Source of the DNA: Burkholderia sp. L27(2015)
Lineage (GTDB): Bacteria; Pseudomonadota; Gammaproteobacteria; Burkholderiales; Burkholderiaceae
Reading direction: 5' to 3'
Assembly (NCBI RefSeq): GCF_009765705.1
Contig: NZ_LMUX01000021.1
Coordinates: 27,607-91,606, forward strand
DNA length: 64,000 nucleotides
In this document: in pieces, positions 2,048 through 60,251 of the stretch
Numbering within the stretch: the stretch's first letter is position 1
Layout: each line of letters begins with the position of its first letter
Translations under genes and position numbers: made by a program
The notes under the pieces: model-generated
What the model saw: the letters and a program-made list of their open reading frames with translations, nothing else
What the model was told of the DNA's origin: nothing
Database searches by the model: none

Positions 2048-2638
2048 CTAGTGAGTCACGCGGGTGCTGCCATCGCCAGACAACACACGTACCCGGTCGC
2101 CGGCTTGAAACGTTTCGCCGTTGGCGAGCTGGTCGATAGCGCTCAACTCGCCGCTGTCGAGGCGCACCGTAATTTCCAGACCGTCTCGGATGGCGACGCC
2201 GTTTTCGACCGCGTTGCCGGCGACGGCGCCAGCGATGTTACCGACCTCTCCGGTTACGAGCGCAGTCCGCCCCGCACTGATCGGACCGCCTGCGAGCCCG
2301 TTTTCGGAGCCTGTGGCGCTCGAACCGAAGCCGCTGGACTGCGTGCCGTTCGCACTGATCTGCGTGGGCCTGGCGTTTTGCACGACGCCCAGGCGCACGA
2401 TCACCTGCTGCTGCGGCTGGGCAGGCGTGCTGCCGCTGGACGCCTGCGACGGCGAACTGCTCGTGCTCATGTTGCTACTCATGCTGCTACCTACACAGCC
2501 TTGCAAACCCAGTGCGAGAAGTAACGTTGCCGCCGCAACCGGTAACGTTGCCGCCGCGACTGGCAAACGCACCGCCGCTGTCCTAGCCGCTGCGTTAGCC
2601 ACCGCATTAGCCGAACCCTCAGCCGATCTCTTAGCCAT
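2048..2638 (-). CDS. Outer-membrane lipoprotein with glycine-zipper-like segment (SlyB/PcP-like)
   Basis: This 196-residue precursor has an unusually long hydrophilic N-terminus, a hydrophobic segment and a lipobox LGLQGC near residue 53, so it should be lipidated and anchored in the outer membrane. The mature part has a Ser/Gln/Pro-rich linker, then a region resembling the glycine-zipper 2TM family (GEVGNIAGAVAGNAVENG), and a C-terminal part with VRLDSGE and a final beta-like segment. Such proteins are thought to stabilise the envelope. The first ~35 residues come from two tandem DNA repeats (2577-2636 and 2521-2562), so the signal peptide looks artificially extended; starts nearer the hydrophobic segment are possible. 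The function is inferred from family only. Confidence 0.82.
   Translation of the reverse strand: MAKRSAEGSANAVANAAARTAAVRLPVAAATLPVAAATLLLALGLQGCVGSSMSSNMSTSSSPSQASSGSTPAQPQQQVIVRLGVVQNARPTQISANGTQSSGFGSSATGSENGLAGGPISAGRTALVTGEVGNIAGAVAGNAVENGVAIRDGLEITVRLDSGELSAIDQLANGETFQAGDRVRVLSGDGSTRVTH
2521..2562. repeat. 21-bp tandem duplication inside the lipoprotein signal peptide
   Basis: Two near-identical 21-bp units, 2521-2541 and 2542-2562, both begin GTAACGTTGCCGCCGC. Read on the minus strand they encode the doubled PVAAATL of the hydrophobic signal segment. The copies differ at two positions, so the event looks recent. Confidence 0.9.
2577..2636. repeat. 12-bp tandem array coding for the lipoprotein N-terminus
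   Basis: Five degenerate 12-bp units, each ending TAGCC or CAGCC (2577-2588, 2589-2600, 2601-2612, 2613-2624, 2625-2636), keep the reading frame. On the minus strand they encode four-residue blocks rich in Ala/Asn/Ser (SAEG, SANA, VANA) directly after the initiator codon. Confidence 0.8.
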
Positions 2639-2649
2639 GACCGCTCCCG

Positions 2650-3588
2650 TTACTGGAGTTTAAAACCGAACGCCTGACTAAACTTCTCGTCGATTTGCGC
2701 ACGCGTGAGCACGTAGTTTTGGGGACCCTGTTCCGCTATTTTCAGCGAACCGAGCAGGCTGGCAAGACGCCCGGTAGTTGCCCAGTCGAGCCCGTTTTCG
2801 AGGCCGTACAGCAGGCCTGCACGGAATGCATCGCCGCAGCCGGTGGGGTCCATGATGCGTTGCGGGGGTACTGCCGGAATCTCCTCCACACCGGTGCGCG
2901 TGTGGATCTCGGCACCGTGCTCGCCGCGTGTGACGATCACGGCTTGCACTCGCTCAAGCATCTGAGCAAGCGACCAGCCCGTTTTGTTCTCAAGCAATTT
3001 CGCTTCGTAATCGTTGACCGCGACGTACTGGGAGAGTTCTATCATGCGCTGCAGTGCCGGACCGTCGAACAGCGGCAGGCCCTGGCCCGGATCGAACACG
3101 AACGGGATATCCGCCTGCGCGAACTGCTCGCAGTGTTCGCGCATGCCGACCGGACCATCGGGTGCCACGATGCCCAAGGTGATTCCGGAGGCGTCCGCTA
3201 CGCGGTTCTGATGCGATTCCGACATGGCGCCCGGATGAAACGCCGTGATCTGGTTATTGTCGAGATCGGTCGTGATCATCGCCTGCGCCGTATAGGTGTC
3301 GGGCAGCACGCGCACGTTCGCATTCGAAATACCCAGCGCCGCCAGCCGGTCCAGATAGACCTGGGCATCGACCGCACCCAGTGTCGCCATGATGCGCGGA
3401 TCGCCGCCGAGTAGTTTCAGACCGTAGGCGATGTTACCCGCGCAGCCACCGAATTCCCGGCGCATGGTCGGCACCAGAAAACTCACGTTCAGGATATGAA
3501 CCTGGTCCGCAAGGATGTGCTCGCGAAACCGCCCTTCGAACGTCATGATGTTGTCGTATGCAAGTGAACCGCAAATCAGCGTAGCCAA
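2650..3588 (-). CDS. PfkB-family carbohydrate/nucleoside kinase (adenosine kinase-like)
   Basis: This 312-residue cytoplasmic kinase of the ribokinase/PfkB fold is commonly annotated as adenosine kinase in Burkholderia and Cupriavidus. It shows the substrate-side glycine motif GGCAGNIAYGLKLLGG (residues ~47-62) and the C-terminal catalytic/anion-hole motif DPTGCGDAFRAG (~250-261) with the conserved Asp base. It would phosphorylate a ribosyl substrate with ATP. The start appears to be TTG at 3588, since the sequence matching the family N-terminus (MATLICGS) begins there and an AGGA lies 7 nt upstream. Substrate specificity cannot be settled from sequence. It lies 12 nt upstream of the lipoprotein gene on the same strand. 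Confidence 0.88.
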   Translation of the reverse strand: MATLICGSLAYDNIMTFEGRFREHILADQVHILNVSFLVPTMRREFGGCAGNIAYGLKLLGGDPRIMATLGAVDAQVYLDRLAALGISNANVRVLPDTYTAQAMITTDLDNNQITAFHPGAMSESHQNRVADASGITLGIVAPDGPVGMREHCEQFAQADIPFVFDPGQGLPLFDGPALQRMIELSQYVAVNDYEAKLLENKTGWSLAQMLERVQAVIVTRGEHGAEIHTRTGVEEIPAVPPQRIMDPTGCGDAFRAGLLYGLENGLDWATTGRLASLLGSLKIAEQGPQNYVLTRAQIDEKFSQAFGFKLQ

Positions 3589-3795
3589 AAGAATGTTCCT
3601 CGTTCAAAAGTGAAATCCGGACCTACAAATAGAATGGGACCGAAGCATACGGTTTCAACCAGGTCCTGAGCTCCATGAGCATGGACTGCATGAGGCCTGC
3701 ATTGCAATCGTATGAGCCGGTAGTGTGGCAAAACGCCGTGCCACTCCTGTACCGAACGCATCCTGCTGCGGCCTATGCGACGGTCGCGACAGGAT

Positions 3796-3841
3796 CGCTT
3801 GGGACTCACCTTGGGACTCGCATACTCGCAAGTCCCAAGCG
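3796..3841. repeat. Perfect 11-bp inverted repeat with an internal 12-bp direct repeat
   Basis: CGCTTGGGACT (3796-3806) and AGTCCCAAGCG (3831-3841) are perfect inverted copies around a 24-nt loop. Inside, CTTGGGACTCAC (3798-3809) is followed by CTTGGGACTCGC (3810-3821). The structure starts 7 nt beyond the tpx stop and could end or stabilise its mRNA, but there is no U tract. Confidence 0.7.
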
Positions 3842-3848
3842 CGCCAAC

Positions 3849-4349
3849 TTACTTGACTGCAGCCAACGCCGCGTCGTAATTCGGTTCGTTTTTGATTTCC
3901 GTCACCAGCTCCGCATGTACCACCTTGTTGTCGGCATCCAGAACCACCACGGCGCGGGCGGTCAGGCCGGCCAACGGGCCACTGGTGATATCCACGCCAT
4001 AGCTGCGCGCGAACTCGCGACCGCGGAACGTCGACAACGACACCACGTTCTCCAGCCCTTCCGTCGTGCAGAAACGCGACGCCGCGAACGGCAGATCGCC
4101 TGAGATCACCAGCACAACCGTATCTTTCAGCGCGCTGGCAGCTTGGTTGAATTTGCGTGTCGACGTCGCGCAAGTCGGCGTATCGAGGCTAGGAACGATG
4201 TTGAGCACTTTGCGTTTGCCGGCGAAATCGGCGAGCGACACCTCCGCCAGCTTGCTATTGACCAACTTGAAATCGCTGCCCGGCTGACCGACGGCCGGGA
4301 ACGAACCTTCTACATTGATCGGATTTCCACCCAGGGTAACTTGAGTCAT
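3849..4349 (-). CDS. tpx: Thiol peroxidase (atypical 2-Cys peroxiredoxin)
   Basis: Tpx reduces hydrogen and lipid peroxides using thioredoxin. The protein is 166 residues, normal for the family. The peroxidatic site is in [13 protein letters not shown] (~residue 60) and the resolving cysteine in LPFAASRFC (~residue 95). These form the intramolecular disulfide typical of Tpx. The start is ATG at 4349, with GGAG on the minus strand 6-7 nt upstream and the family N-terminus MTQVTLGGN; an upstream in-frame ATG at 4373 is less likely. It stands alone, separated by repeat-rich spacers from the neighbouring same-strand genes. A stress regulator may control it but no site is evident. Confidence 0.96.
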
Positions 4350-4420
4350 ATCATCTCCAGACAGGCGTCGCATTGCGACAGGTGAGTGAGGGGTAGCGGA
4401 TGCGGGCTACCCGGTGAGCT

Positions 4421-4531
4421 GTGTCAAATGCGTGTTGCAACGAAGACTGCAAAGCGAAGGCTGTAAAACGCAGGGATCAAAATGAAGCCTGCCAGATGCA
4501 GATTGCCAAATGAAGGCGGTGAATCGAAAAG
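4421..4531. repeat. Degenerate 14-bp tandem array, about eight units
   Basis: Units of 14 bp with approximate consensus TGCCAAATGAAGGC run in register at 4448-4461, 4462-4475, 4476-4489, 4490-4503, 4504-4517 and 4518-4531. Weaker or shortened copies occupy 4421-4447. The array fills most of the gap between tpx and the zinc-ribbon protein and stops about 5 nt before that gene's 3' end. Copies diverge at several positions, implying age. Confidence 0.8.
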
Positions 4532-4535
4532 GCCG

Positions 4536-5501
4536 TCACGGATAGAAGATTTTGACACGGTAATTGCTGGCGGGTACGGTCGTGGTGTCAACGCGAATAC
4601 CGACTAACACCTGCGCACGTGGGCCGATGCCATTGTCCTGCAGCGACGGATCGCTTAGATATTGGGCGGGCGCTATCACTTTGCGGATTGCCGCCTGGTT
4701 GTGATTGTCCGTCAAGGTCAGCTCGACAGACGGGTAGGCGAGCGTGAGGCCGACACGGTTGCGTATCGTCAGCGCCAACGCAAGGTGGTGCGGGTCGTCG
4801 ATTTCGCGCAGCGACATGTCGGCGATTTGCAGCAGGTCGATATCGTGCACCGGCGTGAGCTTGCAACCGCTTATCCGGCAGACCGCCTCATAGGCCACCT
4901 GGCTGGGTGGCCAGACCACGCGAAAATACTCGCGTTGCCACCAGGCATACTGAAGCGCCGCGCCCAGCAGCAAAATAATAAGCAGCAGGCCAAGTAGCGA
5001 GCTGCGCACTGCGCGCCCGCGCGAGGCCGGTTTGCGATCGGATGCTGCAACCGGGGTGTGCGACGGAGGTATTGCTGCAGATCGCGCAGCCGTGCCCTCC
5101 CGAAGGGCGGATTGGGGGTTGGACAACGGGTCGGACAACTTCCGCAATGGCGGTTCAGCGGGGCTCAGCGCTGGATTAAGCGCCGGCTCGCGAGCGTTGC
5201 GCCTGGCCAGCAACGAGCGACGGGCGTCGGCCGCGTCATCCGCGGTTGAAACACTCGCCGGCGCTTTACCGGCGCTCGGCTCAACGGGGAGATCAATCTG
5301 GTTGCGGTTGCCGTCGAACACGGCGTTGCAGTGCCCGCAGCGCACCTGACCGCCGCTGACGGCGAGCTGATCGGGCGCGAGGCGAAACACAGTCAGACAA
5401 TTCGGACAACGGGTAGCGAGCACGATAGCAGGGCAGAGTCGAGCGAATAAGGTGAAAGTACGGTTAAGCACGCCGCCTGTGCGCAACGCTGATTGCGTCA
5501 A
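4536..5501 (-). CDS. MJ0042-type zinc-ribbon, single-pass membrane protein with DUF3426 domain
   Basis: The protein begins with a CPNC...CGHC zinc ribbon (MJ0042 family). A Pro/Ala/Ser-rich linker follows, then one transmembrane helix around residues 170-190 (LLGLLLIILLLGAALQYAWW) and a C-terminal ~130-residue DUF3426 domain expected in the periplasm. The function is unknown; the gene sits just downstream of prmA in many Burkholderiaceae. The start is uncertain. ATG at 5501 gives 321 residues, whereas family members usually begin two residues before the first ATRCPNC, which here would be GTG at 5423 (295 residues). I lean to the shorter form for the protein but give the maximal frame. Confidence 0.82.
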   Translation of the reverse strand: MTQSALRTGGVLNRTFTLFARLCPAIVLATRCPNCLTVFRLAPDQLAVSGGQVRCGHCNAVFDGNRNQIDLPVEPSAGKAPASVSTADDAADARRSLLARRNAREPALNPALSPAEPPLRKLSDPLSNPQSALREGTAARSAAIPPSHTPVAASDRKPASRGRAVRSSLLGLLLIILLLGAALQYAWWQREYFRVVWPPSQVAYEAVCRISGCKLTPVHDIDLLQIADMSLREIDDPHHLALALTIRNRVGLTLAYPSVELTLTDNHNQAAIRKVIAPAQYLSDPSLQDNGIGPRAQVLVGIRVDTTTVPASNYRVKIFYP

Positions 5502-5648
5502 GCATGACCTGGCACTGGCGCGCCATTCGGTTGACCCCGGCTAGACTCGGGGCAGACCCTGTTGACCGCGCTCGACCTGGGCTGTCCTGCGTTGCCAGCA
5601 TCATCCCAGGTTGGCCGGGGTTGAGCTCCCATCAGTTCCCATAGGCTC

Positions 5649-6548: not shown

Positions 6549-6567
6549 GGTGACGGTGTCGATGCGC

Positions 6568-10069: not shown

Positions 10070-10091
10070 CATACCCGTTACATACCCGTTT
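10070..10091. repeat. 11-bp tandem duplication upstream of the TlpA gene
   Basis: CATACCCGTTA (10070-10080) is followed directly by CATACCCGTTT (10081-10091), a single-base difference. It lies in the short gap between two minus-strand genes. Confidence 0.8.
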
Positions 10092-17956: not shown

Positions 17957-18074
17957 GTAGCTGATGTACTTGGCTCATGTGTGTAGCAGATGCACCTGCA
18001 CCTGGCTCATGTGTGTCGCTGATGCACATAGCTCATGCCGCTACCTCATGCAACCTGATGCAACCGCCTGATGC
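17957..18074. repeat. Imperfect tandem repeats of 26-32 bp, decaying to 10-bp units
   Basis: Three related blocks at 17957-17982, 17983-18014 and 18015-18039 each contain GTAGC/GTCGC, a GATG(T/C)AC core and GCTCATG. They are followed by short copies of CTGATGCAACC-like sequence to about 18074. The array occupies nearly all of the convergent pyrF-cinA spacer, leaving no recognisable terminator. Confidence 0.65.
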
Positions 18075-20199: not shown

Positions 20200-20356
20200 G
20201 CTGCAAACCCAAAAATCCCATTGTAGCTGCGGGACCGACTCGGGATGATCTCGACGTAATCGGCCAAACGATTAGCGCTACAATATACGAATAGGCTTTT
20301 TCTTAAAACGTGTCTCGATAGTGCCCAACCAGGGTGCCTAGCCAGCACGACGAGCC

Positions 20357-20426
20357 GCGCGTTACCTTGCGCGCGTTTCCTTGCACGCATTTCTTTGTGC
20401 GCATTTCCTTGCGCTCATTTCCTTGT
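20357..20426. repeat. 14-bp tandem array, five units, in the maeB leader
   Basis: Five in-register 14-bp units with consensus GCGCATTTCCTTGC occupy 20357-20370, 20371-20384, 20385-20398, 20399-20412 and 20413-20426. A partial sixth follows. The array ends about 40 nt before the maeB start codon. Adjacent copies differ at one to four positions. Confidence 0.9.
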
Positions 20427-20467
20427 ATTTTCGCAACCACCGCCAATCACCCGCAGACAAGACAAAT

Positions 20468-22762
20468 ATGTCCACTCCAGTCAACACCAAACTACGCGAA
20501 GCCGCTCTCGATTATCACGAGTTCCCCGTACCGGGAAAAATTTCGATTGCTGCGACCAAACAAATGATCAACCAGCGCGATCTCGCGCTCGCGTATTCAC
20601 CCGGTGTTGCGTTTGCTTGCGAGGCCATCGTTGAAGACCCGCTCAACGCCGCTCGTTTCACCGCGCGCAGCAACCTGGTCGGCGTCGTGACCAATGGCAC
20701 GGCGGTACTCGGGCTGGGCAATATCGGGCCGCTCGCTTCCAAACCTGTGATGGAAGGCAAGGCCGTTCTATTCAAGAAATTCGCCGGCATCGATGTGTTC
20801 GATATCGAACTCAACGAAAGCGATCCCATGAAGCTGGTCGATGTGATCGCGGCGCTCGAGCCGACCTTCGGTGGCATCAACCTCGAAGACATCAAGGCGC
20901 CCGACTGCTTCGTGGTGGAACGCGAATGTCGCAAGCGCATGAAGATTCCCGTGTTTCACGACGATCAACACGGTACCGCGATCGTGGTGGCCGCGGCGAT
21001 CACCAATGGATTGAAAGTTGTTGGTAAGGATATCGGCAAGGTCAAGCTGGTGGCGTCCGGTGCGGGTGCGGCGTCGCTGGCGTGCCTGGATCTATTGGTC
21101 GATCTGGGCCTGAAGCTGGAAAATATTTTCGTCACCGACTTGGCTGGCGTGGTCTATAAAGGCCGCGTCGAATTGATGGACCCGGATAAAGAACGCTTCG
21201 CGCAAGAAACCCCTGCGCGCAAGCTGGCCGACGTGATGCCGGGCACCGATATTTTCCTCGGCCTGTCTGCTGGCGGCGTGCTCAAGCAAGAGATGCTGGC
21301 GCAAATGGCCGAGCGCCCGTTGATTATGGCGCTGGCCAACCCCACGCCTGAAATCCTGCCGGAGTTGGCACTCTCGGTGCGTCCCGACGCGATTATCGCG
21401 ACCGGCCGTACCGACTATCCCAACCAGGTCAACAACGTTCTGGTGTTCCCGTTTATTTTCCGCGGTGCGCTCGATGCGGGCGCGAGCACCATTACGCGCG
21501 AGATGGAAATTGCCGCAGTGCACGCCATCGCCGATCTGGCGCGTCAGGAACAAAGCGATGTGGTGGCGACAGCCTACGGCATCCAGGATTTGTCGTTCGG
21601 CCCGGAGTATTTGATTCCCAAGCCTTTCGATCCGCGCCTCATCGTCCAGGTCGCGCCGGCCGTTGCACAGGCCGCGATGGATTCCGGCGTCGCCACGCGC
21701 CCGATCGAAGACATGGAAGCGTATCGCCAGCACCTGCAACAATTTGTCTATCGCAGCGGCACCATCATGAAGCCGATCTTCACGGCTGCACGTGCGTGCG
21801 ATGCATCGCGCAAGCGCATCGTGTTCGCCGAGGGCGAGGAAGAACGCATCTTGCGTGCGGTTCAGATCATCGTTGACGAAAAACTGGCGCGACCGATCCT
21901 GATCGGGCGCCCTGAAGTGATCCAGGCGCGTATCGCCAAATTCGGCCTGCGTCTGACGGCCGAAGTCGATTTCACGATGGTCAATACCGAACATGATCCG
22001 CGCTATCGCGATTACTGGCAGACCTACCACACGATGATGTCGCGCAAGGGCATCACCGAGCAACTGGCCAAACTGGAAATGCGCCGCCGCTCGACGCTGA
22101 TCGCGGCGATGCTGCTGGAAAAGGGCGAAGCGGACGGGATGATCTGCGGCACGATCAGCACCACGCACCGTCACCTGCATTTCCTCGATCAGGTGATCGG
22201 CAAGCGCGAAGGGCGCTGCGTTTATGCCGCGATGAACGGCCTGATTTTGCCGGGCCGACAGATTTTCCTGGTCGACACGCACGTCAATTCGGATCCGAAT
22301 CCCAATGAGCTCGCCGAAATTACGATCATGGCGGCTGAGGAAATGCGGCGTTTCGGGATCGAACCCAAGATTGCGCTGCTGTCGCATTCGAACTTCGGTT
22401 CGAGCAACGTCGCGTCAGCGCAGAAGATGCGCGATACGCTCGCCCTGCTGCGCGAACGCGCTCCTGAGCTGGAAGTCGACGGCGAAATGCACGGCGATCT
22501 TGCGCTCGATGCGAAGTTGCGCGCGGAAATCCTGCCCGATTCGACGCTCACGGGCGAGGCCAACCTGCTGGTACTACCCAATATCGACGCCGCCAACATT
22601 GCGTACAACCTGCTGAAGGTCGCGGCTGGCGATGGTGTCGCGATCGGGCCGATCCTGCTGGGCGCGGCCAAGCCGGTGCACATTCTGACCCCATCTGCGA
22701 CCGTGCGTCGCATTGTCAATATGACGGCATTGACCGTAGCGGATGTCTGCGCGACGCGCTAA
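20468..22762 (+). CDS. maeB: NADP-dependent malic enzyme with C-terminal phosphotransacetylase-like domain
   Basis: MaeB oxidatively decarboxylates malate to pyruvate, producing NADPH. The 764-residue protein has the malic-enzyme N-domain ([12 protein letters not shown], ~44-55), a metal/substrate site in [20 protein letters not shown] (~163-182), and the NADP Rossmann domain around residues 195-235. From about residue 430 a phosphotransacetylase-like domain begins ([20 protein letters not shown]); in this family it is regulatory rather than catalytic. The start is ATG at 20468 ([13 protein letters not shown]). The in-frame upstream extension to 20381 is encoded by the 14-bp repeat array and is not family-like. 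Confidence 0.95.
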
Positions 22763-22988: not shown

Positions 22989-23474
22989 ATGGCTTTTGGC
23001 GTGATGCGTAAGCCGCCGCAATGCGGTGCCACCGTGTTTTGGCTCGCTGCACTGGTCGTCGCGGCGGCCAGCGGCTTTTCGGCGCCGGCACAGCCTGCGC
23101 AAGCCGAGGAGCGTACCGGCGGTGCAGAAATTCCGGTGGTTTTGGCGGCGACGTTGCCGTTGGAGGCGAGTCGTACCTTGGCGCTGATTCGTCGGGGCGG
23201 CCCCTTTCCTTACGACAAAGATGGGATAGTGTTCCGTAACCGCGAGCGCCTTCTGCCTTTGGCGCCTAACGGTTTTTACCACGAATATACGGTGCCCCCG
23301 TCCTATGGCGCCGGCGAAGAACCCGAGCGCGATCGCGAGTCATTGCGCTCACGTGACCGGGACTCGGGACACGACCGTGGGGCGCGCCGCATCGTCTGCG
23401 GCAGTAATTCGGCTGGCGGGGTGTGCTATTACACGCCCGACCATTACTCCAGTTTTCAACGCATTGTGGGATGA
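22989..23474 (+). CDS. Secreted guanyl-specific ribonuclease, barnase (N1/T1/Ba) family
   Basis: This 161-residue precursor has a signal peptide (hydrophobic residues ~14-32, cleavage near AQAEE). The mature ribonuclease carries the barnase-type catalytic set: Glu99 in FYHEYTVP, Arg133/134 in GARRIVCG and His152 in TPDHYSSFQRIVG. The segment LPLEASRTLALIRRGGPFPY and PYDKDGIVFRNRE are typical of the family. It should cleave RNA after guanosine outside the cytoplasm. Between the catalytic Glu and Arg lies an extra Arg/Asp/Glu/Ser-rich stretch (residues ~105-129) that looks like an expanded loop. The next gene encodes the matching inhibitor barstar, 7 nt downstream. Confidence 0.92.
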   Translation: MAFGVMRKPPQCGATVFWLAALVVAAASGFSAPAQPAQAEERTGGAEIPVVLAATLPLEASRTLALIRRGGPFPYDKDGIVFRNRERLLPLAPNGFYHEYTVPPSYGAGEEPERDRESLRSRDRDSGHDRGARRIVCGSNSAGGVCYYTPDHYSSFQRIVG

Positions 23475-23481
23475 CTACGGT

Positions 23482-24300
23482 ATGAGCGGTAATGTTTACG
23501 CACAAGACGCCGGGGTCGCAGGTGATCCGTTCGCAAGCGGCGAAGGTAACGTATTTCAAAGAGTGGTGCTGATGCAGAGCGAATCTCGCAAGGCGGCACA
23601 GGCACGCGCATCGGCCAAGAGCGCGGGCGAATCTCAGGCTGCGCCGGCGAGTGGGCCAACTGACGGGCCACCGCATGCGGCACCTCATGGGCCAACTACC
23701 GCGCCAACTGATGAGCTATTGAGTGGCCCAGTCGCGGGTGCGCTCGCCGGCTCAGTTGCCAGTGCCACTGCTGGTGCGGCCGATGAGCCCGGAGCCGCGA
23801 CGACTGGGAGCGCAGCCGACCCCGGACAACAAGACCGACCGGCCGCTGCCGTAGAACCTGCGCTTCAACCGACGGGTCTGTCGGCCAAACACGAGGCGAA
23901 CATGAATCTGTTCAAGACGGTACGACCGAACATCGTGCAGTCGATTCGTGCTTTTCGAGTGGTCGATCTCGCTGACGAGGCGGCTCGCCTCGGGCAGCAT
24001 TTCCTGTACGCAAGTTGCGGCCACGCCCAGACCAAGGGCGAGGTGCTGGAAATTATTGCGAACTCGTTCTTATTTCCGCGCCACTTCGGCAAGAATTTCG
24101 ACGCCTTGTTCGACTGCCTGACCGATCTGGTGGCCAAGGCCGGACCTCAGCCTGGTTTCGTGGTGGTGCTGGAAGCGCTGCCTGTGGTGACGAAATTCGA
24201 CAAGGATGCGCGCGAAACCCTGCTCGACGTGTTTCGTGAAGCGGCGGAGTTCTGGGCTGAGCGTAAGGTGACATTCCGCGTTTTCTATTCGTTCGCCTGA
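23482..24300 (+). CDS. Barstar-family ribonuclease inhibitor with expanded N-terminal extension
   Basis: The C-terminal part (residues ~141-272, beginning MNLFKTVRPNIVQS) is a barstar domain, with HFGKNFDALFDCLTDLV and the C-terminal AEFWAERKVTFRVFYSFA. It should bind and block the upstream barnase-type RNase inside the cytoplasm. Residues 1-30 (MSGNVYAQDA...EGNVFQRVVL) resemble the usual Burkholderia N-terminus. Residues ~55-100 are encoded by an in-frame 12-bp tandem array (SGPT, DGPP, HAAP, HGPT, TAPT blocks), and the rest to 135 is Ala/Gly/Pro-rich and probably disordered. ATG 23902, with GAGG five nt upstream, could give a short core-only form. Confidence 0.88.
   Translation: MSGNVYAQDAGVAGDPFASGEGNVFQRVVLMQSESRKAAQARASAKSAGESQAAPASGPTDGPPHAAPHGPTTAPTDELLSGPVAGALAGSVASATAGAADEPGAATTGSAADPGQQDRPAAAVEPALQPTGLSAKHEANMNLFKTVRPNIVQSIRAFRVVDLADEAARLGQHFLYASCGHAQTKGEVLEIIANSFLFPRHFGKNFDALFDCLTDLVAKAGPQPGFVVVLEALPVVTKFDKDARETLLDVFREAAEFWAERKVTFRVFYSFA
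23650..23733. repeat. 12-bp in-frame tandem array in the barstar gene
   Basis: Seven 12-bp units, several ending GGGCCAACT or a variant, occupy 23650-23661, 23662-23673, 23674-23685, 23686-23697, 23698-23709, 23710-23721 and 23722-23733. They encode tetrapeptide blocks of the form xGPT and preserve the frame. Copies have diverged, most in the last two units. Confidence 0.8.
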
Positions 24301-24348
24301 TTCGATTGCCTGAGCCGTCTGGCTGAATCGATCGGGCCGTGCTCGTTC

Positions 24349-24389
24349 GTGGCTTATCGGTCGCTTATCCGTCGCTTCGTCGCTTATTT
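24349..24389. repeat. 11-bp tandem repeats between barstar and rsmE
   Basis: GTGGCTTATCG (24349-24359), GTCGCTTATCC (24360-24370), a shortened GTCGCTTC (24371-24378) and GTCGCTTATTT (24379-24389) lie head to tail in the convergent spacer. Confidence 0.8.
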
Positions 24390-26595: not shown

Positions 26596-28665
26596 ATGAC
26601 GACCCCGCCTATCAGTCAAACTGCGAATGAAACTGTGACCCAAACTGTGACCCAACCCGCGAGTCAAACCGCGCTCATGGCCAATGCAATCCGCGCGCTC
26701 GCGATGGATGCGGTCCAGCAAGCCAATTCCGGCCACCCCGGTATGCCCATGGGCATGGCTGAAATTGCTGTTGCGCTTTGGCACCGCCATCTCAAGCATA
26801 ATCCGGTCGATCCGCACTGGCCCGATCGCGATCGGTTCGTTTTGTCCAATGGTCACGGTTCGATGCTGTTGTACTCGTTGCTGCACCTGACGGGCTACGA
26901 TCTGCCGCTCGACGAGTTGAAGAATTTCCGCCAGATGCATTCCAAAACGCCGGGGCATCCGGAGTTTGGCATGACGCCGGGCGTGGAAACCACCACCGGG
27001 CCGCTGGGCCAGGGGCTGGCGAACGCGGTCGGGATGGCGCTTGCGGAGGCGCTGCTGGCCAAGGAGTTCAATACCGAGCGCCTGAAGATCGTCGACCACC
27101 ACACCTATGTCTTTCTCGGCGATGGTTGCCTGATGGAAGGCATTTCGCACGAAGCGTGTTCGCTGGCCGGCACGCTCAAGCTCGACAAACTCATCGCGCT
27201 GTACGACGACAACGGCATTTCGATCGACGGCCACGTCGAGCACTGGTTTGCCGACAACACCCCCCAGCGGTTCGAAGCCTATGGCTGGCATGTCATCGCG
27301 AACGTCGATGGCCACGATGTCGAGGCGCTGGACGCCGCGATTGCCGCCGCGAAATGCGCGGGCAAGCCGACGCTGATTTGTTGCAAGACGGTTATCGGTA
27401 AAGGTTCGCCCAATAAGGCCGGCACTCACGATGTGCACGGTGCTGCGCTGGGCGCCGCGGAAATTGCCGCAACGCGCGCGGCACTGGGCTGGAGCGCCGA
27501 GCCGTTCGTGATCCCGGCCGAAGTCTATCAAGCATGGGATGCCAAAGCCGCAGGGGCCACGGCCCAGGCGAGCTGGCAAAAAACGTTCGACCAGTACCGC
27601 GAAGCGCACGCCGAGAAGGCCGCGGAATTCGAACGCAGGATCGCCGGAAAGCTGCCGCAGCGCTGGTCGCAGGCCGCGGCCGAGATCATTGAAAGCGTCA
27701 ACCTGAAGGCCGAGACGGTCGCTACACGCAAGGCCTCGCAACAAGCGATCGAAGCGATTGCCGCGGTGCTGCCCGAGTTGCTCGGCGGCTCGGCCGATCT
27801 GACCGGCTCGAACCTGACCAACTGGAAAGCATCCAAGCCCGTGCGCGCAGGCCAGGACAGCCTCGAGTGGGGCAATCACATCAACTTCGGCGTGCGTGAG
27901 TTCGGCATGAGTGCGGCGCTGAACGGAATCGCACTGCATGGCGGCTACATCCCGTTTGGCGGCACGTTTTTGACCTTCTCCGATTACAGTCGCAATGCGT
28001 TGCGCATGGCCGCGCTGATGAAAATCCGCTCGCTGTTCGTGTTCACGCACGACTCGATCGGACTGGGCGAAGACGGCCCGACGCACCAGTCGGTAGAGCA
28101 TGTTTCCAGCTTGCGCCTGATTCCGCATCTCGACGTCTGGCGTCCGGCCGACACGGTCGAGTCGGCGGTGGCCTGGACCGAAGCCGTGGGGCGTCAAGGT
28201 CCGAGCTGCCTGATCTTCAGTCGCCAGAATTTGCCGTTCGTGCCGCGTAGCGACGCGCAGATTGCGGGTATCAAGCGTGGCGGCTACGTGGTGCGCGACT
28301 GGAATGACGACATCCCGGCTCGCAAGATCATCCTGATCGCCACCGGTTCCGAATTGGAGTTGGCGATGGCCTCGATCGAGCCGCTGGCTCGCGTGGGAAT
28401 CGGCGCACGCGTCGTGTCGATGCCGGCCACCACCGTATTCGATCGGCAGGACGCGGATTGGCGCGAACGGGTATTGCCGCGCGGCGTGGCTCGCGTCGCG
28501 ATCGAAGCGGGTGTAAGCAGCTTCTGGCACAAATATGTAGGTCTGGACGGTGGCCTGGTTTGCCTCGATACATTTGGCGAATCGGCGCCGGCTGGCACCC
28601 TGTTCAAGCATTTCGGCTTCACCGTCGAACACGTGGTAGCGACGGCCAAGAAGACGCTCGGCTAA
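26596..28665 (+). CDS. tkt: Transketolase
   Basis: Transketolase moves two-carbon units between sugar phosphates in the pentose phosphate pathway, using thiamine diphosphate. It is 689 residues, about 20 longer than typical because the N-terminus (residues ~8-27: tetrads [12 protein letters not shown]) is built from a 12-bp repeat. Core motifs are [34 protein letters not shown], the ThDP-binding [13 protein letters not shown] (~175-187) and [16 protein letters not shown] in the pyrimidine domain. The start is ATG at 26596; a non-family extension is open to 26215. The gapA gene follows 42 nt downstream. Confidence 0.96.
26618..26677. repeat. 12-bp in-frame tandem array at the tkt N-terminus
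   Basis: Five 12-bp units occupy 26618-26629 to 26666-26677. The second and third are identical (AAACTGTGACCC); the flanking ones have diverged. They add about 20 residues of four-residue periodicity ahead of the conserved transketolase domain. Confidence 0.9.
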
Positions 28666-28707: not shown

Positions 28708-29718
28708 ATGACGGTACGCATTGCAATCAACGGCTATGGCCGGATCGGACGTAACACGCTGCGCGCGCTTTACGAAGGCGGCAAAAAGCACGATATCGAA
28801 ATCGTCGCAATCAACGATCTGGGCGATGCGTCAACCAATGCTCATCTGACGCAATACGACACGGCGCATGGCCGTTTCCCCGGCACGGTGACCGTCGACG
28901 GCGATTATATGGTGGTCAACGGCGACAAGATCCGCGTGCTGGCCAACCGCAACCCGGCCGAACTGCCGTGGGGTGAACTCAAGGTCGACGTGGTGCTTGA
29001 GTGCACCGGCTTTTTCACCACCAAGGAAAAGGCCAGCGCCCATTTGAAAGGCGGCGCAAAGAAAGTACTGATTTCGGCCCCCGGCGGCAAGGATGTCGAC
29101 GCGACCATCGTGTACGGTGTCAATCACCACATCCTGAAAGCCAGCGATACGGTGGTTTCGAACGCATCGTGCACCACCAACTGTCTGGCGCCGCTGGTCA
29201 AGCCGCTGAGTGACAAACTGGGCATCGTCAACGGGCTGATGACCACCATCCATTCCTATACCAACGACCAGGTTTTGACCGACGTTTATCATGAAGACTT
29301 GCGCCGCGCTCGCTCGGCCACGCACAACATGATCCCGGCCAAAACCGGTGCCGCGGCGGCGATTGGCCTGGTGTTGCCGGAACTGAACGGCAAGCTCGAC
29401 GGTTTTGCGATTCGCGTGCCGACGATCAATGTGTCGTTGGTCGACCTGTCGTTTATCGCTGAACGCGACACCACGGTCGACGAAGTGAACGCCATCATGA
29501 AAGAAGCCGCGGACGGCTCGCTCAAAGGCATCCTCGCTTACAATACCGCGCCGCTGGTTTCGGTCGACTTCAACCACAATCCGGCTTCGTCGAGCTTTGA
29601 CGCGACCCTGACCAAAGTGTCGGGCCGCCTGGTCAAGGTGTCGAGCTGGTACGACAATGAGTGGGGCTTCTCGAACCGGATGCTCGATACGGCGGTGGCG
29701 CTGGCGACAGCCAAGTAA
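28708..29718 (+). CDS. gapA: Glyceraldehyde-3-phosphate dehydrogenase
   Basis: This 336-residue type I GAPDH interconverts glyceraldehyde-3-phosphate and 1,3-bisphosphoglycerate. It has the Rossmann start [17 protein letters not shown], the catalytic cysteine in [13 protein letters not shown] (~150-162), and the terminal [22 protein letters not shown] lies 8 nt before the ATG. The last codons (AKstop) are the first unit of a 14-bp tandem array that continues past the stop. Position after tkt and, further on, edd-eda groups several central-carbon genes but not in one operon. Confidence 0.97.
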
Positions 29719-29778
29719 GCTCGGCCAAGTAGAGGGGGCAAGGTAAAGCTGGCGAAGTAACGCCGGCCAAGTAGAGCG
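29709..29778. repeat. 14-bp tandem array starting in the last codons of gapA
   Basis: Five 14-bp units in register (29709-29722, 29723-29736, 29737-29750, 29751-29764, 29765-29778) follow the pattern GGCCAAGTAnnnnn. The first contains the native gapA stop codon TAA, and the stop-like TAG/TAA is reproduced in every copy. A 10-bp duplication (AAACGCAGC) follows near 29788-29807. Confidence 0.92.
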
Positions 29779-29812
29779 CGGTCAGCGAAACGCAGCAAAA
29801 CGCAGCAGGCGC

Positions 29813-29855
29813 AAAAAAGCCGCGAGCGGGGGCCATCCCCACTCGCGGCTTTTTA
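29813..29855. terminator. Bidirectional terminator between gapA and fur
   Basis: AAAAAAGCCGCGAG (29813-29826) and CTCGCGGCTTTTTAA-type sequence (29842-29854) form a stem of over 15 bp, extended by CGGGG/CCCC, with a small loop. A runs on the left and T runs on the right let it serve both convergent genes. Confidence 0.92.
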
Positions 29856-29879
29856 ATGATCTCGATTCTGCTTGGCCGC

Positions 29880-32756: not shown

Positions 32757-32798
32757 GCGGGCGTAACCCGGCGGGCGTAACCCAGCGGACGTAAGCCG
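32757..32798. repeat. 14-bp tandem array between exbB and exbD
   Basis: GCGGGCGTAACCCG (32757-32770), GCGGGCGTAACCCA (32771-32784) and GCGGACGTAAGCCG (32785-32798) form a head-to-tail triplet inside an otherwise ordinary operon spacer. Confidence 0.92.
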
Positions 32799-41493: not shown

Positions 41494-43329
41494 ATGGTTT
41501 CTCTACACCCCCAACTCGAAACAGTGACCGCCCGTGTGGTGGCGCGCAGCGGCAAGAGCCGAGCTGCCTATCTGGCGGGTATCGCGCGCGCGCAAGGGCA
41601 ATTTCCGTCGCGTACCGCGCTGTCGTGTGCCAATCTGGCGCACGGTTTCGCCGGCGTCGAAGGCCACGACAAGATCGCGATCAAAGCGCTCAAGCAACCC
41701 AACATCGGCATCGTGTCGTCCTATAACGACATGCTGTCGGCACACGCGCCGTACGCCGGCTATCCCGAGGTGATCAAGCGCGCAGCGCGTGAAGCGGGGG
41801 GCGTGGCGCAGGTCGCCGGGGGCGTGCCGGCCATGTGCGACGGCATCACCCAGGGCAATCCCGGCATGGAGCTCTCGCTGTTCTCGCGCGAGGTGATCGC
41901 CATGAGTACCGCGGTCGCACTGACGCACAATATGTTCGATGCAGCGCTATGCCTGGGCGTTTGCGACAAGATCGTGCCGGGCCTGTTGATCGGCGCTTTA
42001 CAGTTCGGCCATCTGCCGACCATTTTCGTGCCGGCCGGCCCGATGACCAGTGGGCTGTCCAACGGCGACAAAGCCAAAGTCCGCCAGCAGTACGCAACCG
42101 GCCAACTCGACCGGGAAGCCTTGCTGGAAGCCGAGTCGGGCGCCTATCACGCACAGGGCACCTGCACGTTTTACGGCACGGCCAACAGCAATCAACTGCT
42201 CATGGAGGTGATGGGGCTGCATCTGCCTGGCTCGGCGTTCATCCATCCCTACACACCGTTGCGCGAAGCGCTGACCGCTCAGGCCGCACGGCGCGTGCTT
42301 GAGCTGACCGTCGATCGAGGCGAGTACACACCGATCGGCCAGGTCGTCGATGAGCGCGCGATCGTCAATGGCATCGTCGGCTTGCTGGCAACCGGTGGGT
42401 CGACCAATCACACGCTGCATCTGGTCGCGATTGCGCGGGCCGCGGGGATCCTGATCGACTGGGACGATTTCGACCAGCTTTCGCAAGCCGTGCCTTTGCT
42501 GGCACGCATCTATCCGAACGGCAGCGCCGATATCAACCACTACCATGCGGCCGGTGGCATGGCGTTTCTGATTCGCGAACTGCTCGACGCCGGTTTGCTG
42601 CATGAAGAGGTGAATACGGTGGCCGGCCGCGGTCTGCGCCGCTACACCGAGGAGCCGAAATTGCTCGACGGCAAGTTGAGCTGGGTGGCCGGTACGCCCC
42701 ACAGCCTGGACACGACGGTATTGCGGGGCGCGGCCGATCCGTTTGCTGCAGATGGCGGTCTACGGTTGATGCAGGGTAAGCTGGGGCGTGGTGTCATCAA
42801 GATTTCGGCGGTTGCGCCGCAACATCGCAGAATCCAGGCGCCCGCGCTCGTGTTCGATTCGCAGGAGGCCGTGCAACGCGCGTTCGACGCCGGCGAACTG
42901 AAACGCGATTTCGTCGCCGTGGTGCGGTTCCAGGGCGCACGCGCCAATGGCATGCCGGAACTTCATCGGCTTACGCCGCTGCTGGGGGTGTTGCAGGATC
43001 AGGGCTTCCAGGTCGCGCTGGTGACCGACGGCCGTATGTCGGGGGCATCAGGCAAGGTTCCGGCAGTCATCCACGTTTCGCCGGAAGCGCTGTTGAATGG
43101 TCCCTTGGGCAAGCTGCGTAGCGGCGACACGGTGGTAATCGACGCCGAACGAGGCATACTGGATGTCCAGATCGACCCGCAACTTTGGGCGCAACGCAGC
43201 GTCGAACAGCCTGATGATGCCGTTGACCACGCAGTCGGCTTTGGCCGCGAGTTATTCGGTGTGTTTCGGCGCTCGGCCGCCCCTGCCGAGGCTGGCGCGT
43301 CGATATTCGGTCCGTTAATCGGCGAATGA
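41494..43329 (+). CDS. edd: 6-phosphogluconate dehydratase
   Basis: Edd dehydrates 6-phosphogluconate to KDPG, the first committed Entner-Doudoroff step. The 611-residue protein is of the IlvD/Edd [4Fe-4S] dehydratase family. It shows [21 protein letters not shown] (~73-92) and [19 protein letters not shown], with Cys ligands in [14 protein letters not shown] and [13 protein letters not shown]. The start is ATG at 41494, since GAGG lies 7 nt upstream. The stop codon lies in the first unit of an 11-bp tandem array. Expression is probably repressed by HexR through the upstream operator. Confidence 0.96.
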
Positions 43330-54975: not shown

Positions 54976-54990
54976 CCGGCGCGTGACTGG

Positions 54991-55042
54991 GTTGGCCAAC
55001 CCCGTTGGTTGACCCTGTTACCCAACCGAGTTGCCCACCCTG
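54991..55042. repeat. 13-bp tandem array after the histidine decarboxylase gene
   Basis: GTTGGCCAACCCC (54991-55003), GTTGGTTGACCCT (55004-55016), GTTACCCAACCGA (55017-55029) and GTTGCCCACCCTG (55030-55042) are four units in the short spacer before the rlmL-like gene. Confidence 0.8.
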
Positions 55043-55066
55043 CGCCCGTAAGGGCTCCGCTCAAAC

Positions 55067-56353: not shown

Positions 56354-56372
56354 GGGCGGGCGCAGAGAGGCT

Positions 56373-56414: not shown

Positions 56415-56514
56415 AAACGAGCTTACGCAGATTAGGGATTACGAACCGCTGAACACGCGCGCAGGGCGCAGCACGCTCAGCCGGCGCCAAACCCGTATTG
56501 TACGCGGCCCGCGC

Positions 56515-57261
56515 TCAGTGATCGGCCGGGCACGCCGGCAGATTCACGGTTTTACTGTCCGCCGGCAATCGTTGGAGGCTACGCACTGCCATGCCGATCT
56601 GTAGTGCGAGGCCGGCCAGCACCTGCCGGTGGCTGGCGACGAGCGCGTCGTAGCCGTCGCCTGCCGGCGCGCTTAGTGCGCTACGGCAGGTCAGCGTCAG
56701 CGATTGCGGCAGGCGCGTGACGCTCCACACCGCCTCGAGCGAGGCGTGGTTGCCCAGCACCGACTCGAAGCGCTGCACATTGACCGCCACGCGATATACC
56801 GTCTGCGTCGGCTCGTGCGTCGAGCGGTACACGTCCACCGCGGGCAAGGCGTGCGTCAGATCCCCGGAGAGTGCCTGTCCGATCTCGTCGCCCAGCGGTT
56901 GCGACCAGCGGCGCTGCTCCAGCACGTCGACCTGACCCGGTCCGGTGCCGAGCACCATTTGCGGCCGCTGGAGTTGCGGCGGGATGCTGGCTGGCAAGAC
57001 TTCGATAAGCAGCGGGCTTGCATACGTCTGCGAACCGGCGTTCACCACCGGGGAAACCGTCGCCGTCGCGGAGCCGCTCGCATTGCCGCCACCGGTCAGC
57101 GTATAAAAATAGGTGGGCTGCGAGCTGGCGCACGCGGCCAGCGTCAGCAGCGCGCCAGCGCTAACCAGACGCCTGCACGGCGTAGGCCAGCCGATCACGC
57201 TTGATTTGCGTGGTTTCATGGGTTTTTGTGAGGCGCAGCCGCCGCCGTCGCGATAACTCAT
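56515..57261 (-). CDS. pqiC: PqiC-type ABC transport auxiliary lipoprotein
   Basis: This 248-residue lipoprotein has a signal peptide and lipobox LTLAACASSQP near residue 44. It belongs to the PqiC/auxiliary-component family that anchors the Pqi system in the outer membrane. A conserved segment YFYTLTGGG and LIEVLPASIPPQLQRPQMVL (~85-104) is typical. It overlaps the pqiB stop by 4 nt (ATGA), so translation is coupled. The N-terminal ~25 residues before the hydrophobic part are unusually long; an internal start at MKPRKSS is possible. Confidence 0.9.
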   Translation of the reverse strand: MSYRDGGGCASQKPMKPRKSSVIGWPTPCRRLVSAGALLTLAACASSQPTYFYTLTGGGNASGSATATVSPVVNAGSQTYASPLLIEVLPASIPPQLQRPQMVLGTGPGQVDVLEQRRWSQPLGDEIGQALSGDLTHALPAVDVYRSTHEPTQTVYRVAVNVQRFESVLGNHASLEAVWSVTRLPQSLTLTCRSALSAPAGDGYDALVASHRQVLAGLALQIGMAVRSLQRLPADSKTVNLPACPADH

Positions 57262-58910
57262 TGTTTGTCTCCCTGATTACCGCGCAGTAACGATTCCGGA
57301 TGGCGTTCAAGATAGTCCGCCAACGAGTTGAGCGATTGCAAGGTGCGGTTAAGCTGCTCCAGCGCCTGCTGCAGATTGTTCTGCAGCGGCGAATCCTGGC
57401 TCAATGCCTGTTGGGCCGCGCCGAACGTCTTCTTGGCTTGCTCAAGCGTGTCTTTGGCCTCCGGCGCCACCTGCGTATCGAGTTGACTGAACAAACTGTT
57501 CGCGCTCTTCAACGCGGTGTTCAGGTTGTTGCCGATCTGGTCGAACGGCACCTTGTCGAGTTTCTTCGCAATATCTTCGACCTGGTTTTGCAACTGATCG
57601 AGCGTATTGGCTTCGGTCGGCAGCTCAATGGGCAGCTTGTTCAGGTCGAGCTTGGCCGGTGCCGCTTTCGGGAAATAGTCGAGCGCGATATAAAGCTGTC
57701 CGGTCAACAGATTGCCGGTGCGCAACTGGGCGCGCAGACCATGTTGAACCAGCGAAGCCAGCAGCGCACCGTTCTGGGTCGGCGAGGCGTCACGTATGCG
57801 CGCGGCGAAGTGCGCGCCAAGCCGATTCGGATAGAGCAGCACCGTGACCGGCATCTTGAAACGCTGCGTCGGCTCGTCGTAATCGAGTCCGATGGACTGC
57901 ACTTCACCGACTTCCACGCCGCGGAAATCGAGCGATGCACCCGGCGACAGCCCGCGCAGCGATTGGTTGAAGTTGAATACGATCGTGACCGGTTGACCGT
58001 CCGGCACGCGCATTGCATCGCTGCGGCTGGTAGCCAGACCAAACGAGTAATCGTCCGGCGCCGGGGCCCCCAGCGTTTCGGCGGGTGCGGTCTGGAACGC
58101 GATACCGCCGATCAGCACTGCCGCGAGCGACTGGGTGTTGAGCTTGATGCCGTTGGAATCGATCTGTAAATCGACGCCGCTGGCATGCCAGAAGCGCGTG
58201 TTGACCCCCACATAGTGATCGTAGGGCGCATCGACAAACACGCGCAGGGTCACCCCGTTGCCGTCTTTATCGAGATTGAACGCGACCACCTGCCCGACCT
58301 GAATGCGGCGGAAAAACACCGGCGAGCCGATATCGAGCGAGCCCAGGTTGTCGGTATGCAGCACATATTGATGGCCCTTCTGGTCGCCGGTGACGGCCGG
58401 CGGCGTTTCGAGCCCGTTGAAATCCTGGCGCTCGTCGTGGGACTTGCCCGCGTCAGCGCCGATGTAGGTGCCGGACAACAAGGTATTCAGGCCCGACACG
58501 CCGCTCAATGCCACACGCGGGCGCACCACCCAGAAGCGGGTGTCGGTGACGGCAAAGCCTTCGGCCGCCTTGGTCAACTCGACTTTGACCACCACGTGCG
58601 AAAGATCGTGGCTCAGCGTTACGCCCTTGACGTCGCCAATGTCGACGTTCTTGTATTTGACCTTGGTTTTACCGGGCTCGATGCCTTCCGCGCTACCGAA
58701 CGTGATGCTGATGGTCGGGCCGGTCTTCAATATCTCCTGCGCCACGAGCGACAGCCCGATCAGCGCAGCGATGATCGGGATAAGCCATACCAGCGACGGC
58801 AGCCAGCGCCGCATCGGGCGCACCACCGGTTCGGAAACATCGCCGTCGATCGGCGGCGAACCGTCGGGTTTAGTATTCTCGCCCGGTGAGTTCGGGTCTT
58901 TTTCAGTCAT
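57258..58910 (-). CDS. pqiB: Intermembrane lipid transport protein PqiB (MCE domains)
   Basis: PqiB forms the periplasmic MCE tube that links inner and outer membranes. The 550-residue protein has an N-terminal transmembrane helix (LPSLVWLIPIIAALIGLSLV, ~34-53) and three MCE domains (~55-145, ~165-270, ~295-400; e.g. IEPGKTKVKYKNVDIGDVKG). A C-terminal helical, coiled-coil-like region rich in Gln/Leu/Asn (~430-540) follows. It lies between pqiA2 and pqiC with 4-8-nt overlaps, forming one operon. Confidence 0.94.
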   Translation of the reverse strand: MTEKDPNSPGENTKPDGSPPIDGDVSEPVVRPMRRWLPSLVWLIPIIAALIGLSLVAQEILKTGPTISITFGSAEGIEPGKTKVKYKNVDIGDVKGVTLSHDLSHVVVKVELTKAAEGFAVTDTRFWVVRPRVALSGVSGLNTLLSGTYIGADAGKSHDERQDFNGLETPPAVTGDQKGHQYVLHTDNLGSLDIGSPVFFRRIQVGQVVAFNLDKDGNGVTLRVFVDAPYDHYVGVNTRFWHASGVDLQIDSNGIKLNTQSLAAVLIGGIAFQTAPAETLGAPAPDDYSFGLATSRSDAMRVPDGQPVTIVFNFNQSLRGLSPGASLDFRGVEVGEVQSIGLDYDEPTQRFKMPVTVLLYPNRLGAHFAARIRDASPTQNGALLASLVQHGLRAQLRTGNLLTGQLYIALDYFPKAAPAKLDLNKLPIELPTEANTLDQLQNQVEDIAKKLDKVPFDQIGNNLNTALKSANSLFSQLDTQVAPEAKDTLEQAKKTFGAAQQALSQDSPLQNNLQQALEQLNRTLQSLNSLADYLERHPESLLRGNQGDKQ

Positions 58911-59559
58911 AGTGAGATCCAGTGTGTTTGATCGGGTCCCAGATCAGACGAGGGTCGAAGGTCATCGAAGCCATCATGGTGAGCACCACCACGCAGGCAA
59001 AAGCCACGGCACCGCTGCCAGGGGTGATCACGGCAAGGGATTGGAAATTGACTAGCGTCACGGTGAGCGTGATCACAAATATGTCCAGCATCGACCAGCG
59101 GCCGATTTTCTCAACCAGCCGGTAGAGCCGCGTGCGTTGCCGCGGGCGCCATTGCGAGCGCAACTGCGAGCTGACCACCAGCAAGACCAGCACCACGAGT
59201 TTGAGCATGGGCACCAGGATACTGGCAACGAACACGATGCAGGCGAGCGGCCATTCGCCATCCTGCCAGAAATAAATGATGCCGCTCATGATCGTGTTGT
59301 CCTGCGAGCCGAGAATCGAGCTCGTATGCATGATAGGCAGCAGGTTGGCCGGGATATAGAGCAGCGCCGCCGCGATCAGCAGCGCCCAGGTGCGCGTCAC
59401 GCTGTCGGGGTGCCGCACATGCAAGGGGGCGCCGCAGCGCCTGCAGCGTGGAGGGGTCGCGGATGCGCCCGACGTGCCCCCCGATGCGCGCGGCGGATTC
59501 ACCAGCCCGCAGGTATGGCACGCCTGCAGGCCCGCTTTGCGTGCCGTGACGTATTTCAT
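58903..59559 (-). CDS. pqiA: Paraquat-inducible protein A, second half (PqiA2)
   Basis: This 218-residue inner membrane protein corresponds to the C-terminal half of enteric PqiA. It has an N-terminal zinc-ribbon-like pair CHTCG (~15-19) and CRRCG, and four helices (e.g. WALLIAAALLYIPANLLPIM). It overlaps the upstream half by 4 nt and pqiB by 8 nt. In enterics the two halves are fused in one ~417-residue protein; here they are separate genes, as in Burkholderia. It presumably helps pass substrate into PqiB. Confidence 0.9.
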   Translation of the reverse strand: MKYVTARKAGLQACHTCGLVNPPRASGGTSGASATPPRCRRCGAPLHVRHPDSVTRTWALLIAAALLYIPANLLPIMHTSSILGSQDNTIMSGIIYFWQDGEWPLACIVFVASILVPMLKLVVLVLLVVSSQLRSQWRPRQRTRLYRLVEKIGRWSMLDIFVITLTVTLVNFQSLAVITPGSGAVAFACVVVLTMMASMTFDPRLIWDPIKHTGSHYD

Positions 59560-60251
59560 GGGCGTGCCGTCCGCTTGCGGGCAGCATGCGCCGGCCGGCT
59601 AGCGGTGGGCTTACGGCGTGCGGGCTTACGGCGAGCAGGCGCGGCCTCAGGCAGCGCTTGCGCGATTTCCCACAATTGCCGCAAGTCGAACGCCATGATC
59701 AGTGCAAGCAAAAAGGTCACGGTTCCGAAGGCGAACAAGGCAGCCTCCGGAATCACGCGCGCCAAGTCGGATAGCTTGACCAGCGTGACCAGCACGCCCA
59801 GCATGAATACTTCGATCATGCACCATGGCCGGATCGCCTGGATCGTGCGCAGTACGGGCGCGTAGTACTGCGGTCGACGCCCGCGACACATCGGAACGAT
59901 CAGCCACAGCATCGCCAGTACTTCGAACAGCGGCAGCACGACGGTCGACGCCAGCACGATCGCGGCGACCAGCGGTTCGCCGTCGCTCCACAAATGCCCT
60001 ACCGCGCCGATGAGCGTGGTGCGCGTGGAAAAGCCACTGGTCTGGAGTTCGACGATCGGAAAGCCGTTGGCGATGCCCAATGTGATCAGTGTCGTCAACA
60101 GCAATGCGAGGATGCGCTCCAGTTTGCCGGAGGACTGGCTGTAGAGCACAGCATCGCAGCGCGAGCAGCGCGCGCTCGACAAGCGTGAAAGCGCCACCTT
60201 GCTATGCAGGGCGTCGCATTCCGGGCAGGCGATCAGCGTGTCTGTATCCAT
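59556..60251 (-). CDS. pqiA: Paraquat-inducible protein A, first half (PqiA1)
   Basis: This 231-residue inner membrane protein corresponds to the N-terminal half of PqiA: zinc ribbon CPECD...CSRCD (residues ~9-34), then four helices (ILALLLTTLITLGIANGFPI; LVAAIVLASTVVLPLFEVLA). The last ~35 residues are a basic Arg/Lys/Pro tail (ARRKPARRKP) encoded in part by a 15-bp tandem duplication. It is the first gene of the pqi operon. Its 5' neighbour is the divergent yceI-like gene. Confidence 0.9.
   Translation of the reverse strand: MDTDTLIACPECDALHSKVALSRLSSARCSRCDAVLYSQSSGKLERILALLLTTLITLGIANGFPIVELQTSGFSTRTTLIGAVGHLWSDGEPLVAAIVLASTVVLPLFEVLAMLWLIVPMCRGRRPQYYAPVLRTIQAIRPWCMIEVFMLGVLVTLVKLSDLARVIPEAALFAFGTVTFLLALIMAFDLRQLWEIAQALPEAAPARRKPARRKPTASRPAHAARKRTARP
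59607..59636. repeat. 15-bp tandem duplication in the pqiA1 basic tail
   Basis: GGGCTTACGGCGTGC (59607-59621) and GGGCTTACGGCGAGC (59622-59636) are adjacent copies differing at one base. They encode the repeated ARRKP of the C-terminal tail. Confidence 0.9.

Follow-up and report, generated by a model that had tools for sequence, protein, structure and literature searches.

Small tandem arrays of narrow unit size and unrelated sequence in the spacers of a Burkholderiaceae genome

The window considered here, a stretch of 64,000 nucleotides (C14:27607-91606) of a 6.42-Mb draft genome of the family Burkholderiaceae, assembled in 73 contigs, is dotted with short tandem repeats, some of them at gene ends. 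A sequence-only reading listed 20 such sites and proposed that recurrent local duplication, with selection keeping in-frame copies, is shaping this genome. The question is whether the arrays exceed chance, whether they are peculiar to this genome, and whether they represent a mutational product, a dispersed element or a set of selected sites. The sequence analysed comprises 850 kb of contig C14, 400 kb of contig C9, and stretches of relatives, the latter sampled at approximately 100 kb each and therefore small. Genes were called by a home-made fifth-order Markov gene finder, trained separately for each sample, in which stops are exact and starts approximate. It overlooked one low-complexity gene in the window, at 1040-1756, encoding an HC2/histone-H1-like protein built of AAKKA/PAKK tandem repeats, with higher-order periods of 15, 33, 63 and 78 bp.

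The arrays of the window

Each listed site was scored by ungapped matching at lags of 9-32 and compared with 500 dinucleotide shuffles of the local 80 bp. Nineteen of the 20 sites are real tandem arrays by this score (P <= 0.01), while the one at 54991 finds no support (P = 0.19). As the sites had been chosen by eye, these P values are post hoc, and the unbiased test is that of the whole-sample counts. Tandem Repeats Finder (TRF) by itself confirmed approximately 14 of the sites and overlooked the clean two-copy arrays at 2521, 3798 and 59607. Some of the original descriptions need amending: the array noted at 17957 exists, with its best score at a period of 26-32 bp, and the one at 26618 belongs to the first part of the transketolase gene and not to a spacer (Table 1). 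The array at 2574 possibly falls in the coding end of a minus-strand open reading frame (2048-2638). Those at 20357, 26155 and 41213 sit in divergent spacers and thus, by our gene calls, follow no gene end. In the array at 43320, the stop codon is repeated in every copy.

Table 1. Tandem arrays of the window (positions are those of the whole stretch; gapA is by our reading)
Position	Strand	Array and setting	Evidence
2521..2566		21-bp unit, 2 copies, 19/21 identical	lag 21, P<0.002; not in TRF output
2574..2636		degenerate 12-bp array, ~5 copies	TRF + lag score
3798..3819		12-bp unit, 2 copies	lag score, P=0.004; not in TRF output
4441..4474		degenerate 14-bp array	lag score, P=0.010
10070..10090		11-bp unit, 2 copies, codirectional spacer	TRF + lag score
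17965..18027		26-32-bp repeat, convergent spacer	lag 32, P<0.002; TRF period 26
20356..20425		14-bp unit, 5 copies, divergent spacer	TRF + lag score; corresponding G001 spacer without array
23653..23709	+	degenerate 12-bp periodicity within predicted gene 23353-24300	lag score, P=0.002
24348..24377		11-bp unit, 2.7 copies, convergent spacer	TRF + lag score
26151..26191		13-bp unit, 3.2 copies, divergent spacer	TRF + lag score
26616..26677	+	12-bp in-frame array near transketolase N-terminus (gene 26596-28665)	TRF + lag score
29710..29773	+	14-bp array, ~5 copies, across stop codon of gene 28708-29718 (gapA)	TRF + lag score; orthologous array in G001
29783..29807	+	10-bp unit, 2 copies here, 1 in G001	TRF + spacer alignment
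32757..32798	+	14-bp unit, 3 copies, ~22 nt past a stop codon	TRF + lag score
41213..41241		12-bp unit, 2 copies, divergent spacer	TRF + lag score
43320..43352	+	11-bp unit, 3 perfect copies, across stop of ilvD/edd-family dehydratase gene (41494-43329)	TRF + lag score
43404..43445	+	12-bp unit, 3.5 copies, same spacer as 43320, before KDPG-aldolase gene	TRF + lag score
44138..44171		13-bp unit, 2.4 copies, convergent spacer	TRF + lag score
51590..51622	+	12-bp unit, 2.8 copies, 18 nt past a stop codon	TRF + lag score
59607..59640	-	15-bp unit, 2 copies, within gene 59556-60251	lag score, P<0.002; not in TRF output

Two neighbors of the arrays deserve mention. The 14-bp array at 20356 lies just upstream of a gene (20381-22762) whose malic enzyme carries a fused phosphate acetyl/butyryltransferase domain, an arrangement already known. 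The convergent spacer 29719-29879 contains, after both of its arrays, an intrinsic-terminator-like stem (GCCGCGAGCGGGG..CCCCACTCGCGGC, then a T run) that is present in G001, a congener, as well.

Abundance, unit size and placement

The whole-sample counts leave little doubt as to the enrichment. In the 440 spacers of C14 (86 kb, from 850 kb with a GC content of 60%), TRF returns 135 arrays at scores of at least 36, versus 5.4 +/- 2.4 in dinucleotide shuffles, 80 versus 0.8 at scores of at least 46, and 37 versus 0.1 at scores of at least 60, while C9 (400 kb), an independent replicate, has 47 arrays of period 10-15 at scores of at least 40, versus 0.4 in shuffled spacers. The run beyond the window and the shuffled comparison, by which the original proposal could be checked, thus give strong enrichment on both contigs, and the window is typical of its genome. 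Pooled, C14 and C9 hold 137 arrays at scores of at least 40 in 134 kb of spacer, from which approximately 700 would be expected in the whole genome.

The periods of spacer arrays are concentrated at 10-14 bp by TRF, with a mean of 12.6 bp among arrays of period 10-15. As a pair of units shorter than approximately 9 bp escapes TRF scoring, such a peak might come from the ordinary replication slippage that every genome undergoes, viewed through a method that favors units of 10-15 bp, an explanation that we find quite unlikely. Exact 8-mer repeats in the spacers, a count free of the TRF bias against short units, yet under-detecting units shorter than 8, number 11, 19, 24, 27, 22 and 12 at lags 10 through 15, versus 1.2-2.7 expected, and are near background (1-6 events per lag) at lags 4-9 and 16-20. 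With 6-mers, the excess is small at lags 6-9 (27-33 vs. 20-24) and large at lags 11-13 (70-81 vs. 18-20). The low counts at lags 6-9 and 16-20, independent of TRF, speak against the slippage explanation, and the peak at 10-15 is not an artefact of TRF scoring. The periods of mostly 11-14 bp noticed by eye thus correspond to a sharp genome-wide peak. Lags 21-28 are also raised, in part by harmonics of three-copy arrays and in part by true units of 22-27 bp; units of 21-27 bp make up a minority of the arrays. Copy number is low, usually 2-3 (56 of 108 arrays have fewer than 2.6 copies), and copy identity spreads continuously from approximately 70 to 100%, as steady birth and decay would produce.

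What the arrays share is size and not sequence. The longest cores common to the units of the 137 arrays come close to those of shuffled units, cores of 9-10 bp being slightly in excess, the commonest 6-mer occurs in at most 8 of the 137, and array GC is 56.5%, versus 55.5% for the remaining spacers. The units are mutually unrelated, as originally claimed, and a dispersed family of the REP type was rejected, no sequence being common to the loci in the core comparison. The window also gave no match to known RNA families in Rfam.

Placement is far from uniform. Per 10 kb of C14 spacer, convergent, codirectional and divergent spacers hold 21.6, 12.5 and 8.8 arrays, and the corresponding densities on C9 are 19.2, 12.1 and 12.4, so that the divergent deficit is not robust on C9, where divergent and codirectional spacers have nearly the same density. 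On C14, arrays are scarcest in the 25 nt upstream of starts. Around 509 stop codons, arrays whose period is not a multiple of three are nearly absent within genes; their coverage jumps abruptly at the stop and amounts to 5-7% of bases over the 0-90 nt past it. Arrays are concentrated 25-75 nt past stops, and the stop codon itself is spanned by an array in 26 of the 509 cases (43320 and 29710 are examples from the window). The observation that arrays start in the last codons or just past stops therefore extends to the genome, through both the density step and the spanned stops.

The peak in position, 30-75 nt past stops, could be due to selection for some feature of that interval, and a reading in which a protein or RNA process (a nucleoid protein, or Rho loading at gene ends) needs sites every 12-13 bases whatever their sequence would account for a narrow size without sequence conservation; the HC2/histone-H1-like protein encoded in the window also fits it. 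We nevertheless consider this reading improbable, as divergent spacers and coding DNA also carry arrays. Rho rut sites are C-rich, G-poor stretches of RNA with regularly spaced YC dinucleotides. Contrary to this, arrays past stops show no bias of C over G on the sense strand (C 0.282, G 0.284; 43 arrays with C>G and 40 with G>C), and Rho loading at gene ends was rejected on this base composition, YC spacing being left uncounted.

In coding DNA of C14, at TRF scores of at least 46, there are 24 arrays of period 12, versus 1.6 expected, and 7 of period 15, versus 2.8; periods 10, 11, 13 and 14 are absent, and non-multiples of three are at chance. C9 agrees on period 12 (25 vs. 5 at scores of at least 40). 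The in-frame periods read from the window are thus borne out, the excess among 10-15 bp on C14 falling on 12. Residues A, H, S, E, P and D are enriched in the coding arrays and W, C, M and Y are depleted, as expected for flexible segments. Some of the in-frame arrays, those in DnaK- and DnaJ-like genes, are conserved motifs of the protein and not new duplications, so that recent birth cannot be assumed for all coding arrays.

Distribution among relatives and turnover

By arrays of period 10-15 at scores of at least 40, per 10 kb of spacer, the present genome stands at 9.9 and 10.9. G017 has 6.1, G030 4.9 (3 arrays), G001 approximately 4.8 and G007 approximately 4.6; G025, G012, G003, G014 (Trinickia) and G016 have approximately 1-2; and G010 (Caballeronia), G005, G022 and Escherichia coli have none. 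At lags 10-15, loci from Burkholderia, Caballeronia and Trinickia stay close to background, and Paraburkholderia is moderately raised. The trait is graded across Burkholderiaceae and strongest in the present genome: the proposed duplication process is supported here by enrichment, and it is not confined to this genome. Ordinary slippage would sit well with the smaller enrichments at mixed periods in some relatives, but not with the absence of arrays from E. coli spacers, nor with densities of 0-1.6 in G010, G014, G012, G005 and G022 against 9.9-10.9 here.

G001, 70% complete, is the single other species of the genus compared; its IlvD/Edd-family protein is 85% identical to that of the window in the matched part, and named Paraburkholderia, Burkholderia, Caballeronia and Trinickia proteins are at most 80% identical. 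In G016 (C1:3084486-3086387), the match to this family is split into two pieces that lie in a single open frame and between them span the query, save for a short gap. Among 34 spacers orthologous between the present genome and G001, 14 are occupied by an array here and 12 in G001. Eight are occupied in both, and in these the two genomes have arrays of different sequence, size and place, with one exception, a 14-bp array in the spacer past gene 28708-29718 (gapA-fur by our reading). Arrays thus turn over rapidly between the two congeners. Divergence defeats alignment in most spacers and so hides the births themselves from direct view; one clear copy-number difference emerged, that of the 10-bp unit at 29783. 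The transketolase array adds 16 residues (48 nt) relative to the G001 orthologue, and the orthologues of G012 and G014 also lack the insert. Across 56 orthologue pairs, a small sample, no clear excess of four-residue tandem insertions was found by a detector that failed to flag the transketolase case. The replacement of arrays and the two between-species differences in copy number fit local duplication. For sites under selection, the retention of the gapA-fur array in both congeners is what one would hope to see; the quick replacement elsewhere, and copies usually numbering only 2-3, are not.

Proposed origin and significance

We propose, at roughly two chances in three, that the arrays result from tandem duplication raised in this lineage, with a preferred size of approximately 12 bp and fast turnover, harmful copies being removed by selection. 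Enrichment, narrow period, position past stops, coding period 12 and unrelated units all agree with recurrent local duplication under selection for in-frame copies, as originally suggested, and the arrays are best read as a mutational signature rather than an element. The lineage would produce head-to-tail duplications of approximately 10-15 bp at a raised rate; two-copy arrays would grow or shrink through further misalignment and decay through substitution. Selection would purge arrays within genes except where the unit length is divisible by three, which would explain the coding period of 12, and would thin them at promoters and ribosome sites, leaving the untranslated stretch past stops occupied. 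A duplication spanning a stop should be harmless, because the first stop still terminates the protein. The size peak was probably made by a raised birth rate and not by size-selective retention.

As to mechanism, our guess is misalignment in replication or repair, in which the nascent 3' end may re-pair approximately one helical turn back, shorter loops perhaps being rejected within the polymerase grip. This size constraint is invoked because slippage alone should give falling lengths, yet units of 4-9 bp are scarce. Clean two-copy cases, on which junction microhomology would have to be judged, number only 6. A lineage-specific enzyme or replication intermediate may instead act as a ruler, copying approximately 12.5 bp, perhaps two such lengths (approximately 24 bp), in tandem, which we regard as unlikely; if true, small duplications would be a major, predictable source of new DNA in spacers and of four-residue insertions in proteins. 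Very unlikely, in our view, are staggered single-strand cuts approximately 12 nt apart, converted into exact tandem duplications by fill-in and Ku/LigD end joining. The narrow unit size would fall out of such a mechanism and the present genome has a Ku gene (G000 C14:1178556), but Ku is equally present in array-poor G010, G012 and G005, was not found in G001 (70% complete), and no cutting enzyme was identified; Ku end joining was rejected as the lineage-specific cause, as Ku does not track array abundance among relatives. A defective PolA 5' nuclease (flap) was also rejected. The polA gene (G000 C9:~142100-146800; L229:2100-6800) contains a poly-T run followed by an N run and looks truncated in family searches; its 181-aa frame is uninformative on mechanism, because the truncation is an assembly gap.

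Bacterial minisatellites, or VNTR loci, are local repeats of variable copy number found in spacers and in the disordered regions of proteins, and VNTR surveys describe scattered loci of many unit sizes. The present genome, in contrast, has hundreds of small arrays of one narrow size. The closest parallel is with the bacterial tandem repeats of constant size and variable sequence of Subirana and Messeguer (PMC8161180), uneven across species, for which these authors note a helical-turn size, suspect a function and suggest a nucleoid protein. One preferred unit size and unrelated sequences are common to both, but their units are of 20-21 or 52 nt, in at least 4 copies, and form sequence families, whereas ours are of 10-15 nt (mean 12.6), mostly in 2-3 copies, without families (shared cores being near the shuffled level), and concentrated past stop codons. 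With size, copy number and families all different, the present arrays are not members of that class, and the search of these authors, which required at least 4 copies of at least 10 nt, would miss most of them. REP, ERIC, BOX and the TAACTGA repeats of Beggiatoaceae (PMC4679880 for the last) are likewise intergenic and near gene ends, but they have a common sequence, which the present arrays do not. A literature search, with subscription literature mostly outside its reach, found no description of a 10-15-bp version of such arrays.

In conclusion, the arrays supply many typing loci. If the preferred size originates at birth, it represents a mutational ruler, one that would caution against a regulatory reading of such arrays and that would explain the growth of spacer DNA and of disordered protein ends in these bacteria.
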